This document shows positions 2,882-58,871 of a stretch of 64,000 nt of DNA, in pieces. The DNA is taken from positions 1 to 64,000 of the forward strand of contig NZ_SLUM01000004.1 of the NCBI RefSeq assembly GCF_004345265.1. Direction: 5' to 3'. The notes under the pieces are model-generated. The model was not told the DNA's origin. It saw nothing but the letters and a program-made list of their open reading frames with translations, and searched no databases. A program made the position numbers and the translations under genes. This DNA comes from Allofournierella massiliensis. Its GTDB lineage: Bacteria; Bacillota; Clostridia; Oscillospirales; Ruminococcaceae. The first letter of the stretch is position 1. Every line of letters begins with the position of its first letter.

Positions 2882-4195
2882 TTAGTCCAGCCGCGGGGTG
2901 CCCTGTGCCTCTGGCAGCGATACATCCATCAGGTGAGCCAGAGTGGGGGCAATGTCGATCAGCTGCATGCAGCCCAGATCGGTGCCGGGAGCAATGCCGG
3001 GGCCGGCGATAAGGAAGCTGGCCCGCATTTCCGGAAAGTTTTCGCTGTAACCGTGCTGAGCCTTCTGATGCAGGGTGGTGCGGCAGTATTCACCAACCAC
3101 GTCGTCACGCAGCTCGTAGCCCTTCTTGGATACCAGTACGTAGTCCGCCTGGGCAAAGCCGCCACGCTCCAGCGCCTGCTGGTGGTTCAGAACCTCCAGA
3201 ATGCCGCTGTCCGGATCGGCGGCCAGATCCGCCAGAATCTGCTCCACCCTGGTACGGGTTTCGGCATCGTCGGGATTGGCCAGGCGGATTTCCGCCGTGC
3301 CGCCTGCCCGCTGGCTCCAGGCCTTCCAGTCCAGAACCCGGCTCTCGTCGTCAATCTGGATCAGGCCGGCCTGCCGCAGCAGCACGTTGGGGCTGATGTT
3401 ATGGGTGTTATCCAGCGAGCCGTGGTCGGAAACCACACACACGTAGACGTTGCCGCTGCAGATGCGCCGGGCTTCGTCGATCAACTCGCCCAGCATGGCG
3501 TCGATCTTCTGCAGGCTGGCCGCCGCTTCCGGGCTGTAAACGCCGAACAGGTGGGCGCTTTCGTCAAAGCTGGCAAAGTAAGCGCTCATAAAGAAGGGCT
3601 TTTCTTCGATCTGGGGCTCCAGTTTATTGCGCAGCATCCACAGTGCAGCCGCGCCGCGCTGAGCATCGCCCGCATCAGTCAGATCCAGACCGCCGGCATA
3701 GCGGCCGATGTCTGCCTCCATCTCGCTGATCAGGCCCTGGGGGCGGCATACCACATCCAGAAAGGCGGAATCCAGTGCGGAGCCGTCCCACCAGAACTCG
3801 GGGGCGATATAGTCGCCGTCCGCGCCCACCGAGGTGGGGAAGGCCACGCTGGCCGAGCAGTAACCGCCCTCACGGGCTGCCTGCCACAGGGTTTTCACGT
3901 TCTTATTGGCAAACCAGTTCCAGGCGCCCATGTGCTTGCCGGCGGGGTCGAAGATGGCATTGTTGTAAATGCCGTGAACCGCAGGATTTACGCCGGTGAT
4001 GATGCTCTGGTGGCATGGATAGGTAAAGGTGGGGAAAACACTTTTCACGCCGCCCCTGGCCACCGCGCCGCCCTGCAAAAAGCAGTGGGTCAGATTGGGC
4101 AGATTTACACCAAGGCGTTCCTGTTCCAGTAAAAATTCCGGTTTCAATGCGTCCACAGAGATCAAAAGCACGCTGGGCCGTTGCTGGGTGTTCAT
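2882..4195 (-). CDS. Alkaline-phosphatase-superfamily phosphodiesterase (NPP-like)
   Basis: 437 aa, with the nucleotide pyrophosphatase/phosphodiesterase fold. The N-terminal metal-binding stretch is SVDALKPEF. The nucleophile region FPTFTYPCH aligns with the threonine motif of NPP enzymes. Later metal ligands are seen in FASFDESAH and SDHGS. There is no signal peptide, so it should act in the cytoplasm on an imported phosphodiester. The ATG at 4195 is 13 nt after an AAGGAG that lies in the last codons of the regulator gene, so the two genes are tightly linked. The substrate is unknown; an amino-alcohol or seryl phosphodiester would fit D-serine dehydratase downstream (inference). Confidence 0.85.
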   Translation of the reverse strand: MNTQQRPSVLLISVDALKPEFLLEQERLGVNLPNLTHCFLQGGAVARGGVKSVFPTFTYPCHQSIITGVNPAVHGIYNNAIFDPAGKHMGAWNWFANKNVKTLWQAAREGGYCSASVAFPTSVGADGDYIAPEFWWDGSALDSAFLDVVCRPQGLISEMEADIGRYAGGLDLTDAGDAQRGAAALWMLRNKLEPQIEEKPFFMSAYFASFDESAHLFGVYSPEAAASLQKIDAMLGELIDEARRICSGNVYVCVVSDHGSLDNTHNISPNVLLRQAGLIQIDDESRVLDWKAWSQRAGGTAEIRLANPDDAETRTRVEQILADLAADPDSGILEVLNHQQALERGGFAQADYVLVSKKGYELRDDVVGEYCRTTLHQKAQHGYSENFPEMRASFLIAGPGIAPGTDLGCMQLIDIAPTLAHLMDVSLPEAQGTPRLD

Positions 4196-56456: not shown

Positions 56457-57659
56457 ATGGCAAAAGCTAAGTTTGAGCGCAGCAAGCCTCATATTAACAT
56501 TGGCACCATCGGTCACGTTGACCACGGCAAGACCACTCTGACCGCCGCTATCACCAAGGTTCTGGCGATGAAGGGCGACGCCGAGTTCACCGATTACGCC
56601 AACATCGATAAGGCTCCCGAGGAGCGCGAGCGTGGTATCACCATCAACACCTCTCACGTTGAGTACGAGACCGACAACCGTCACTACGCTCACGTGGACT
56701 GCCCGGGCCACGCCGACTACGTTAAGAACATGATCACCGGTGCTGCCCAGATGGACGGCGCTATCCTGGTGGTTTCTTCCGCTGATGGCCCCATGCCTCA
56801 GACCCGCGAGCACATCCTGCTGTCCCGTCAGGTTGGCGTTCCCTACATCGTTGTTTTCATGAACAAGGTTGACCAGGTGGACGACCCCGAGCTGCTGGAT
56901 CTGGTTGAGATGGAGATCCGCGATCTGCTGAGCGAGTACGACTTCCCCGGCGACGACACCCCCATCATCAAGGGTTCCGCTCTGGCCGTTCTGGAGAGCA
57001 CCAGCACCGACATCAACGCTCCCGAGTACAAGTGCATTCTGGACCTGATGGACGCTGTTGACAACTACATCCCCACTCCCGATCGTATGGCTGACAAGCC
57101 CTTCCTGATGCCCGTTGAGGACGTGTTCACCATCACCGGCCGCGGCACCGTGGCTACCGGTCGTGTTGAGCAGGGCCAGATCAAGGTTGGCGAGGAAGTT
57201 GAGATCGTTGGTCTGAAGGACGAGAAGAGCAAGACCACCGTTACCGGTCTGGAGATGTTCCGCAAGCTGCTGGACTTCGCCGAGGCTGGCGACAACGTTG
57301 GTGCTCTGCTGCGTGGCGTTCAGCGCTCCGACATCGAGCGTGGCCAGGTTCTGGCTAAGCCCGGCAGCATTCATCCTCACACCAAGTTCCAGGGCCACGT
57401 TTACATCCTGAAGAAGGATGAAGGCGGCCGTCACACCCCCTTCTTCAACAACTACCGTCCTCAGTTCTACTTCCGTACCACCGACGTTACCGGCGTTATC
57501 ACTCTGCCCGAAGGCACCGAGATGTGCATGCCCGGCGATAACGTTGATATGGACGTTGAGCTGATCACCCCCATCGCCATGGACGAAGGCCTGCGTTTCG
57601 CTATCCGTGAGGGTGGCCGCACCGTTGGTTCCGGCGTTGTTTCCAAGATCTACGAGTAA
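56457..57659 (+). CDS. tuf: Elongation factor Tu
   Basis: 400 aa GTPase delivering aminoacyl-tRNA. G1 [10 protein letters not shown]2 threonine in RGITIN, G3 DCPGHADY, G4 NKVD, G5 GSAL, then two beta-barrel domains. Extreme codon bias, as expected for the most abundant protein. AAAGGAGG before ATG. Confidence 0.98.
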
Positions 57660-57688
57660 TCTTTGATTCTCTGATTTTGTGAGCTTCA

Positions 57689-57720
57689 AAGCCCCCCGCT
57701 GCAAAGCGGGGGGCTTTTTT
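57689..57720 (+). terminator. Intrinsic terminator after tuf
   Basis: Perfect 12-bp GC-rich stem (57689-57700 with 57705-57716) and a T run. Confidence 0.85.
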
Positions 57721-57731
57721 GCGCAAAAAAA

Positions 57732-58130
57732 CCGCGGCAGAAGGCCGGTGTGGCATAAGAAAACGACGGTTCTGCCTTAGGATTTTGACGCAAAAAATGT
57801 TCAAAGGGGCAGGCAAGCCACTAAGGCTTGCCTGCCCCTTTTCGCACTTTCTGCATCCAAAATCCTGGGGCAGAACTGCACAGCACCGGAAAAGAGCTGA
57901 TTTTGATGGGAGTGAAAGGAAAAGACCCGCAGTGGGCTGCGGGCGCGTCAATCGTGCGCCCGCCCTGCTTCGCAGATCGCCCTGGCCGGTCGAAGAACCT
58001 ACCGGGTTCTTCGCGGCTTGCACCGCCCCGGCACCCTTGGTGGTTGTCAAGGGGATTTGACGCTGCAATCCCGCAAAAGCGGGCCTTTTCCGGTGTTGTT
58101 TTCTTATGTCACGCCGGCTAAAAGCCGCGG
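57732..58130 (+). ncRNA. Candidate structured RNA or miniature inverted-repeat element
   Basis: A 399-bp stretch without a convincing gene, closed by 33-bp imperfect inverted ends: CCGCGG at 57732-57737 and 58125-58130, plus a 21-bp arm (57744-57764 with 58098-58118, two mismatches). Nested inside are a 19-bp stem (57769-57787 with 57858-57876, two mismatches) around a perfect 16-bp hairpin (57804-57819 with 57825-57840), an 11-bp stem (57884-57894 with 58085-58095), and small GC hairpins (57926-57943, about 57990-58014, 58070-58083). All four mismatches become G-U pairs if the plus strand is transcribed. No promoter is visible, so readthrough from tuf would be needed. The alternative is a MITE-like repeat. 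Confidence 0.55.
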
Positions 58131-58160
58131 CTATAGAATGCTGTGTTTGCAGATTGATTT

Positions 58161-58223
58161 GTGAAGCGGGAAAACACTGTTCTGCTTCACGGAGTCAAAC
58201 CGGGAATCGGAAGATGCCCGGTT
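58161..58223 (+). other. Two further hairpins right of the structured element
   Basis: GTGAAGC (58161-58167) pairs with GCTTCAC (58184-58190), extendable with G-U pairs. AACCGGG (58198-58204) pairs with CCCGGTT (58217-58223). They lie between the structured element and the 3' end of the glycosylase gene and may belong to either. The remaining bases to 58304 hold nothing I can name. Confidence 0.4.
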
Positions 58224-58304
58224 CCGGTGGAGGAAATATCCGCAGGAGTGAAGAGCTCCGTAAGAAGAAATTCCCCGGAAGAAACAGAGAAGGGCAGGGG
58301 AATG

Positions 58305-58871
58305 TCAGTAGGTGTGATCGCACACCTTGCCGATCATCTCCCGCAGAGCGACGAAGTCCCCAAAGGCCATAGGCTTCTGCTTGGGATTGCGCAGCAGAGC
58401 AGCAGGGTGCAGGGTTGCCATGAAGAGAACACCGTTCTTTTCGATGAACTGACCGTGTTCCTTGGTCACGGAGAAGTCCGGCCGGATCAGCCGCTGGGCG
58501 GCAATGCGGCCCAGGCAGACTACGATTTTGGGGCGGATCAGCCGGAACTGCTCCCGCAGCCAAGGCAGGCAGGCATCCCATTCCTCCGGCAGAGGATCCC
58601 GGTTCTGGGGCGGGCGACATTTCACGATGTTGGCGATAAAGACGTTTTTCTCCCGGGAGAGATCCACCGCTTCCAGATACTGATCCAGCAGCTTGCCGCT
58701 GCGGCCCACAAAGGGCAGGCCCTGTTCATCCTCATTCTGGCCGGGGCCCTCACCGATGAACATGACCTCGGCAGTGGGGCTGCCCATGCCGAACACCACG
58801 TTGTGGCGGGTCTCACACAGGCCGCATTTGCGGCAGGCCAGACATTCCTGCTTCAGGGATTCAAAATCCAT
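58305..58871 (-). CDS. Family 4 uracil-DNA glycosylase
   Basis: 188 aa. Iron-sulfur type UDG: motif [20 protein letters not shown] near 40-59, cluster cysteines among C10, C13, C16 and C19 plus C85 and C101, and the late motif [12 protein letters not shown]. Removes uracil from DNA. I chose ATG 58871 because the family begins with [10 protein letters not shown]-like sequence and GAGGTG lies upstream. Divergent from pduL. No clear terminator follows on the minus strand. Confidence 0.92.

Follow-up and report, generated by a model that had tools for sequence, protein, structure and literature searches.

In a 64,000-nt stretch of Allofournierella massiliensis DNA (contig NZ_SLUM01000004.1, positions 1 to 64,000; hereafter the window), a large nested fold lies between the EF-Tu gene tuf (56457-57659 by Pfam, on its left) and a UDG-superfamily gene on the minus strand (on its right). 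Is this fold a new structured RNA or a mobile repeat? The initial annotation, made from the letters alone, leaned toward an RNA of the plus strand because the mismatches in its stems were wobble pairs on that strand; its second possibility was a MITE-like repeat. All the stems it described were found where it had placed them, and the nested fold is real. The closing stem (57744-57764 with 58098-58118) contained exactly two non-Watson-Crick pairs, T-G and G-T, the 19-bp stem (57769-57787 with 57858-57876) contained two T-G pairs, the 11-bp stem (57884-57894 with 58085-58095) was perfectly paired, the capping hairpin was located at 57803-57841 with 17 pairs and a loop of 5, and CCGCGG was present on both outer edges. 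The predicted fold energy was -235.2 kcal/mol versus -149.76 (S.D. 5.45) for shuffled sequences (z = -15.68), and 0 of 100 shuffles were equally low. The parts of the locus are as follows.

57687..57721, plus strand: terminator-like hairpin and T-run of the EF-Tu gene, seen in the sequence upstream of the element and distinct from it.
57732..57738, no strand assigned: left arm CCGCGGC of the hairpin whose loop holds the element; by sequence the two arms form 7 bp, and each lies 5 nt away from the GCC...GGC ends on its side.
57741..57742, no strand assigned: left copy of the 2-bp direct repeat AA (sequence, flank listing).
57743..57768, plus strand: left terminal inverted repeat, the 5' strand of P1 (listing of 22 copies, RNAalifold structure).
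57769..57876, plus strand: arm P2; its reverse complement matches the arm model R1 with 50.5 bits (57769-57886, minus strand).
57877..57885, plus strand: tri-loop hairpin TGC-ACA-GCA, with a loop that varies among copies.
57886..57932, plus strand: 5' strand of arm P3 with the core GTGAAAGGAAAAG (consensus GTGCAAGGAAAAG; sequence, copy alignment).
57933..58029, plus strand: optional 97-bp module, with a one-base edge ambiguity; the other seven complete copies of this genome are without it.
58030..58093, plus strand: 3' strand of arm P3 with the conserved ACCCTTGGTGGTTGTCAAG and TTTGACGC (sequence, copy alignment).
58094..58119, plus strand: right terminal inverted repeat, the 3' strand of P1 (listing of 22 copies, RNAalifold structure).
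58120..58121, no strand assigned: right copy of the 2-bp direct repeat AA (sequence, flank listing).
58124..58130, no strand assigned: right arm GCCGCGG of the target hairpin (sequence, flank-arm test).

The window copy measures 377 bp owing to the optional module, and the basic unit is about 280 bp. Within its own genome the module was found solely in this copy; its sequence occurred in some relatives at one or two sites, and in one class of copies (L066 and L069) the segment between the two module sites was lost. The module was at the same position in families A and B (see below) and at a second position in some Gemmiger copies; it may have been exchanged between elements. The window copy also carries an A at 57915 in the P3 core, where a nearly invariant C was expected. 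All four ORFs of at least 80 aa that overlap this copy extend beyond one of its ends, and no sigma-70-like promoter was found at 57600-58400. Its plus strand falls behind the complete tuf terminator. On the minus strand, a run of seven T (57731-57725) comes after the left arm 57732-57738, and the two together look like an intrinsic terminator of the UDG gene. Judging from the comparison with other copies, the outer CCGCGGC and GCCGCGG arms most likely belong to the target site and not to the element. With these arms and a T-run on the minus strand, the window copy appears to be lodged in the UDG gene's terminator. No empty site bearing these same arms (CCGCGGC/GCCGCGG) was found.

The genome comparison suggested along with the initial annotation revealed that the element is repeated, both in its own genome and in Gemmiger relatives, which favored the MITE-like alternative and counted against a dedicated RNA gene. 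Eight complete copies, including that of the window, and a ninth cut by a contig end were present in its own genome, and matches were obtained in 5 of 7 genomes of the genus, own genome counted. The set that we call family A consisted of 22 copies, 8 from the own genome and 14 from the Gemmiger genomes G002-G004, which had 25-bp inverted ends in common (A/G-GCCGGTGTG...CACACCGGC-T with variants). As expected of a MITE, these were terminal inverted repeats (helix 1 was 95.5% paired; point variants occurred, and L065 was without both tips), and the basic unit was too short to encode a transposase. The ends of families B (AGCCGAGTCC...), C (GGCTGACTCGG...), and D (AGCCGCACTGAC...) differed from those of family A. 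A separate short match, at L034:1098-1128 (G000:C28) and G004:C6:77274-77304, was palindromic and shared the apical hairpin (GGCAAGCCACCAAGGCTTGCC in L034) but had different surroundings.

Comparison of orthologous sites indicated that the copies are dispersed and absent from corresponding positions in relatives. All three relatives with tuf and UDG neighbors as here (G002, G003, and G004; L099-L101) had the gap between these genes without the element. It was likewise missing from the 400 bp that follow tuf in G001, G005, and G006, genomes in which the UDG gene lies at a greater distance from tuf or on another contig. When 700-bp flanks of the 22 family-A copies were compared with the extracted loci, no site was filled in two genomes. 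The site of L066 was empty in L085, and at the site of L074 the other genome (L084) retained merely a 30-bp remnant, which suggests a footprint left by hairpin deletion. L031 and L068 shared a similar stretch on opposite strands, but their sites differed. A 286-bp stretch over one copy was 100% identical between G000:C11 and G003:C47, and the flanks of the G000 copy matched G003:C50 instead. A 2-bp direct repeat (AA, TT, or GT), a target-site duplication of the kind found at MITEs, flanked 27 of 37 copies (16/22 in family A, 6/8 in B, and 5/7 in D), a count for which no control was computed. An inversion of the interior had been considered for copies flanked by TTA...TTT versus AAA...TAA, and was rejected since a 2-bp duplication (TT or AA) together with the termini A/G...T accounts for both. 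By its ends, direct repeats, and dispersal, the element is a MITE; the repetition, inverted ends, 2-bp direct repeats, unrelated loci, and empty orthologous sites all bore out the alternative named in the initial annotation.

Two further observations concern individual sites. Short remnants of about 27-30 bp, made of the left end and the last bases of the right end, were seen in four loci (L083 at about 3235-3261, L084:3417-3446, L085:3355-3384, and L124 at about 630-657). The family-C element occurred in opposite orientations in a coding-looking stretch of two Gemmiger genomes (L086:2802-3085 in G003 and L087:3061-3344 in G004), apparently at the same site, where it looks as if it had been inverted by its ends.

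We further investigated what the copies were inserted into. Exact flanking arms of at least 7 bp within 26 nt on each side were present in 13 of the 22 family-A copies versus 53 of 462 controls, in which left and right flanks of different copies were paired (Fisher p = 3e-7, with pairs that are not independent); the remaining 9 of 22 were without such arms. Two of the 13 armed copies (L063 and L073) had very lopsided arms and may be chance matches. After the right arm, 10 of the 13 armed copies had at least 4 T among 8 bases. A flank duplex energy of -20 or below was reached by 10/22 family-A copies versus 15/462 controls, and a looser cut at -12 separated the two less well (14/22 versus 192/462). 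The 7-bp arms pointed in the same direction, with small numbers, in family B (4/8 versus 3/56) and family D (2/7 versus 2/42). These tests covered copies away from contig edges (omitting the C46 copy in family A, L077, L078, L081, L082, L088, and L122 in B, and L211 and L214 in E) and were run without family C (L086 and L087). At two loci the empty target was found in relatives. The filled site of L075 reads AACGGAATCTCC-TGTTA-element-TTTTT-GGAGATTCCGTTTTTT, and the orthologous empty site in G003 reads AACGGAATCTCC-AAAACA-GGAGATTCCGTTTTTT; the L075 site in G000, G004, and G006 differs more widely. The filled site of L029 reads ATCCCCGTGG-TCTTA-element-ATTTTTG-CCACGGGGATTTTTT, at the G002 site the loop contains CGTTTG, and related hairpins without the element are present in G003 and G004. 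Since the same terminator was seen empty at the sites orthologous to L075 and L029, the terminator predates the insertion. At the L030 site, a terminator-like hairpin of another sequence was present in three relatives. Together, these results showed that family A tends to occupy the loops of pre-existing, locus-specific intrinsic-terminator hairpins.

The interior of the element was examined for covariation in alignment A1, which consisted of 24 module-free copies of families A, B, and C out of 33 extracted (9 with modules or truncated were left out). RNAalifold gave 104 pairs, 49 with changes on both sides; 97.5% of cells were paired versus 85.1% after shuffling, and the covariation score was 0.367 versus 0.149 shuffled and at most 0.088 slid, with no excess of further pair types over shuffles (198 of 500). 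The changes fell mostly between families because copies inside one family are closely related. In a second alignment (A4) of 47 R1 matches, which was fitted to the model so that its pair counts lean towards it, 92.2% of cells paired and the covariation score was 0.737 versus 0.182 shuffled and at most 0.179 slid. The interior therefore consists of two long arms and a tri-loop hairpin, and its helices covary. The tri-loop of the TGC-NNN-GCA hairpin (57877-57885 in the window) took 12 forms among the 24 A1 copies, with the stem nearly always kept. Near-invariant positions of the arm included GCAAGG, CCG.AG, CUU..UGG, C.AGG, and A.CG..G. In the 34 arms that remained of 47 once second arms, near-duplicates, and reverse readings had been removed, the mean conservation of the arm core was 0.76 in paired and 0.75 in unpaired columns; mean conservation alone therefore gives the internal loops no support. 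The covariance search proposed with the initial annotation thus had a divided outcome, in that the helices covary and Rfam 15 supplied no family at the gathering threshold, neither in the whole window nor in 16 loci with diverse arms; the sub-threshold Rfam matches over the element were mostly to microRNA models and far below thresholds.

The strand bias of wobble pairs, on which the RNA proposal had been based, was dissected helix by helix over the 24 copies. For the closing stem, 26 G-U versus 17 A-C cells (7 versus 6 pairs) were counted, which is no clear strand bias, so the argument drawn from the two wobble pairs of the window copy did not extend to these copies. P2 had 54 G-U versus 12 A-C cells, with one invariant pair supplying 24 of the 54, and P3 had 51 versus 3. 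By positions, P3 of family A had 11 G-U versus 2 A-C, and P2 of family B had 7 versus 7. The 34 diverse arms had 66 G-U versus 18 A-C cells (18 versus 12 pairs). A plus-strand G-U preference is thus present in P3, mainly in family A. The orientation of the elements relative to neighboring genes looks random: among the 22 family-A copies, 11 were downstream of a same-strand gene and 12 of an opposite-strand gene, six being in both groups (gene calls relied on codon usage alone and some scored low; on seven sides no gene was called). Because copies face either way about equally, there is no obvious transcript source for a one-strand RNA function, and together with its place behind the tuf terminator this means that the window copy does not look like a dedicated RNA gene. 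What stood of the proposed plus-strand RNA was the covarying interior and the one-strand G-U preference of P3; the closing-stem argument, the seemingly random orientation, and the position behind the tuf terminator went against it.

We then asked how widely the arm occurs. The model R1 was built on the tri-loop hairpin and arm P3, and with it the arm was detected in 64 of 396 sampled genomes of the bacterial family, representing 34 of 115 genera (E of 0.001 or below, strict filters; E-values are rough). Of 39 pattern matches on genome contigs, 26 were given to R1 and 22 of these confirmed (L172, L189, L199, and L204 were not); the other 13 were contigs of G002, G003, G004, or G006. Plasmids and phages gave no blastn match to the element, and none of 61 pattern matches on viral contigs was confirmed by R1 at E 0.1. 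In other genera the arm was carried by family E, with ends GAGCCTGTTC or GAACCTGTATTC, TNA-like flanks, and an exact 3-bp repeat in 5 of 11 copies (by eye). Ends starting with GAGCCTGTTC or GAACCTG and TNA-like flanks liken this family to the IS5-type (ISL2-like) MITEs, and it may be of the IS5/ISL2 type; unlike those MITEs, it shares its arm with the 2-bp-repeat families of Gemmiger. Flanking arms of 7 bp were present in 0 of 11 family-E copies versus 4 of 110 controls, and no preference for terminators was seen. The P3 arm is therefore common to mobile elements with other ends. A 48-bp form consisting of the two ends only, with no arm by its coordinates, was noted at G192:C3:65111-65158.

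The folded members of families D and E and other distant ones mostly look like single arms, and A, B, and C have two. The first arm of A, B, and C matched R1 on the opposite strand with 42 to 52 bits, and P2 may thus be an inverted relative of P3. Direct alignment of the reverse complement of P2 with P3 was weak (22 versus a shuffled maximum of 24 in L067, 17 versus 26 in L117, and 14 versus 29 in L086), and an arm's own reverse complement scored up to 41 bits with R1. A kissing pair or pseudoknot between P2 and P3 had been considered because the P2 loop CCACCAAGG is complementary to CCTTGGTGG in P3, and was dropped given that R1 matches P2 on the opposite strand; it is simpler, though not proven, to read the two arms as inverted relatives.

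A search for the mobilizing enzyme was directed at the ends. With narrow end patterns, no inverted end pair at the spacing of an insertion sequence was found in 396 and 9 genomes, many of them drafts. The IS30-type helix-turn-helix HTH_38 gave 16 matches in 7 genus genomes at the level of the domain, and no insertion sequence was obtained from this search, from the end-pattern searches, or from the TIR-only matches, which in L083, L084, and L085 were short remnants. Allowing at most one mismatch, 73 E-type ends were counted in G272, some of them in inverted pairs of 67 bp, a length that leaves no room for the arm. One of its end pairs (C120, 2.8 kb) enclosed two genes, by eye dehydrogenase-like and glycosidase-like, and no recognizable transposase. 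Another (C87; L293, G272:C87:45200-46400, ends at 290 and 863) spanned 0.57 kb with no R1 match and is a longer relative with another interior; it, too, held no recognizable transposase.

The reading that best fits these results, to which we give a probability of roughly 0.78, is a non-autonomous, MITE-like transposon family that homes to hairpin loops and has a conserved core folding as a single strand. Judging from its ends and short direct repeats, the element would be moved by a DNA transposase that acts in trans and recognizes these ends, and the loop position suggests that this enzyme, or its target DNA, may use the dyad center of hairpins or cruciforms. Insertion in the loop would spare both terminator arms and the T-run, making the end of a gene a harmless place to insert. 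Conservation of the arm independently of the ends implies that it probably has a selected role of its own; the P3 core may be kept as a working folded single strand, most likely RNA, perhaps for protein binding or as an aid to mobility. More speculatively, and in our estimate doubtful as a whole, the arm, about 100 nt long and nearly invariant in its internal-loop bases, would be a hitchhiker, either a structured RNA or a folded single strand, that has spread through Ruminococcaceae/Oscillospiraceae inside several unrelated transposon families, and some of its carriers would home to terminator loops by hairpin structure and not by sequence.

Whether the core acts as RNA or as DNA is the point at which a rival has most to offer. 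For the hairpins of attC and REP, what a recombinase or transposase binds is folded single-stranded or cruciform DNA, and the arm could be conserved as DNA alone in the same way, with no RNA function. A seemingly random orientation to genes fits such an arm, as do the elements in hairpin loops, which resemble hairpins nested in hairpins, and DNA hairpins also tolerate G-T pairs. The one-strand G-U preference of P3 and of the diverse arms is less expected, however, and a single arm-binding transposase explains poorly that two kinds of ends and flanking repeats share the arm. We regard an exclusively DNA role as possible, at well below even odds, and favor RNA over a folded DNA strand.

The remaining rivals are less probable. 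The very stable fold, the covariation, and the lack of an Rfam family at threshold are what a stand-alone functional RNA gene with incidental repeats would also present, yet it would then have to exist in many copies scattered over unrelated loci, bounded by inverted ends and direct repeats, and be missing from orthologous sites. In the window copy, moreover, a core base that is otherwise nearly invariant has been lost, and the module splits P3; we consider such a gene very improbable. A regulatory role, in which the element would be maintained because it influences termination or mRNA 3' ends, would suit the position at gene ends and in terminators, and MITE hairpins are known to affect transcript processing (PMC10969869); it is nevertheless unlikely, as gene-specific conservation is lacking: the 22 family-A loci include no two alike filled sites, and at the sole site where two genomes both have element sequence (L074), one of them keeps just a short remnant (L084). 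Group IIC introns home to intrinsic-terminator motifs (PMC4424553), and the interior of the element is RNA-like, so that an RNA-mobilized retroelement, such as an ORF-less derivative of these introns, could be imagined. Against it, no Rfam family, group II included, appeared at threshold or among the weak matches listed, the long inverted ends and 2-bp direct repeats are traits of DNA transposons, and insertion takes place within the loop in either orientation; we give this origin very little weight. The non-autonomous, hairpin-homing transposon family is accordingly the reading that we retain.

Small repeats usually keep their ends while the interior drifts; here the arm is conserved and the ends differ between families, which opens to test the question of whether selection can act on a folded hairpin, of RNA or of DNA, as cargo in itself. 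By inserting into terminator loops the element would follow a simple safe-harbor strategy, arriving beside genes and leaving them intact. The RNA-like arm family, present in 64 of the 396 sampled genomes of one bacterial family, reached no Rfam 15 threshold. Searched by title or the start of the abstract, the open-access literature, outside which most subscription papers lie, yielded nothing describing this element or MITEs in terminator loops, and no account of an arm common to differently ended families.

Insertion near the center of palindromic or hairpin targets is known from IS30-family and IS1397/ISKpn1-type elements, and IS30 makes 2-3 bp repeats. In both respects these systems resemble the present element, for which no partner with the same ends was identified. 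The Correia, ERIC, and pneumococcal BOX/RUP/SPRITE MITEs (PMC10969869 and PMC3049150) are likewise short, with terminal inverted repeats and a stable transcript fold, and have modular variants and repeats inserting into one another. The element differs from them in a core that is conserved across differently ended families and in entering the loops of pre-existing intrinsic terminators, whereas SPRITE itself resembles a terminator. With the group IIC introns (PMC4424553) it shares terminator homing, seen here as insertion at intrinsic terminators, and a structured RNA, in the element a putative one; it differs from them in having no Rfam intron RNA match, in its long terminal inverted repeats, and in its insertion within the loop in both orientations.
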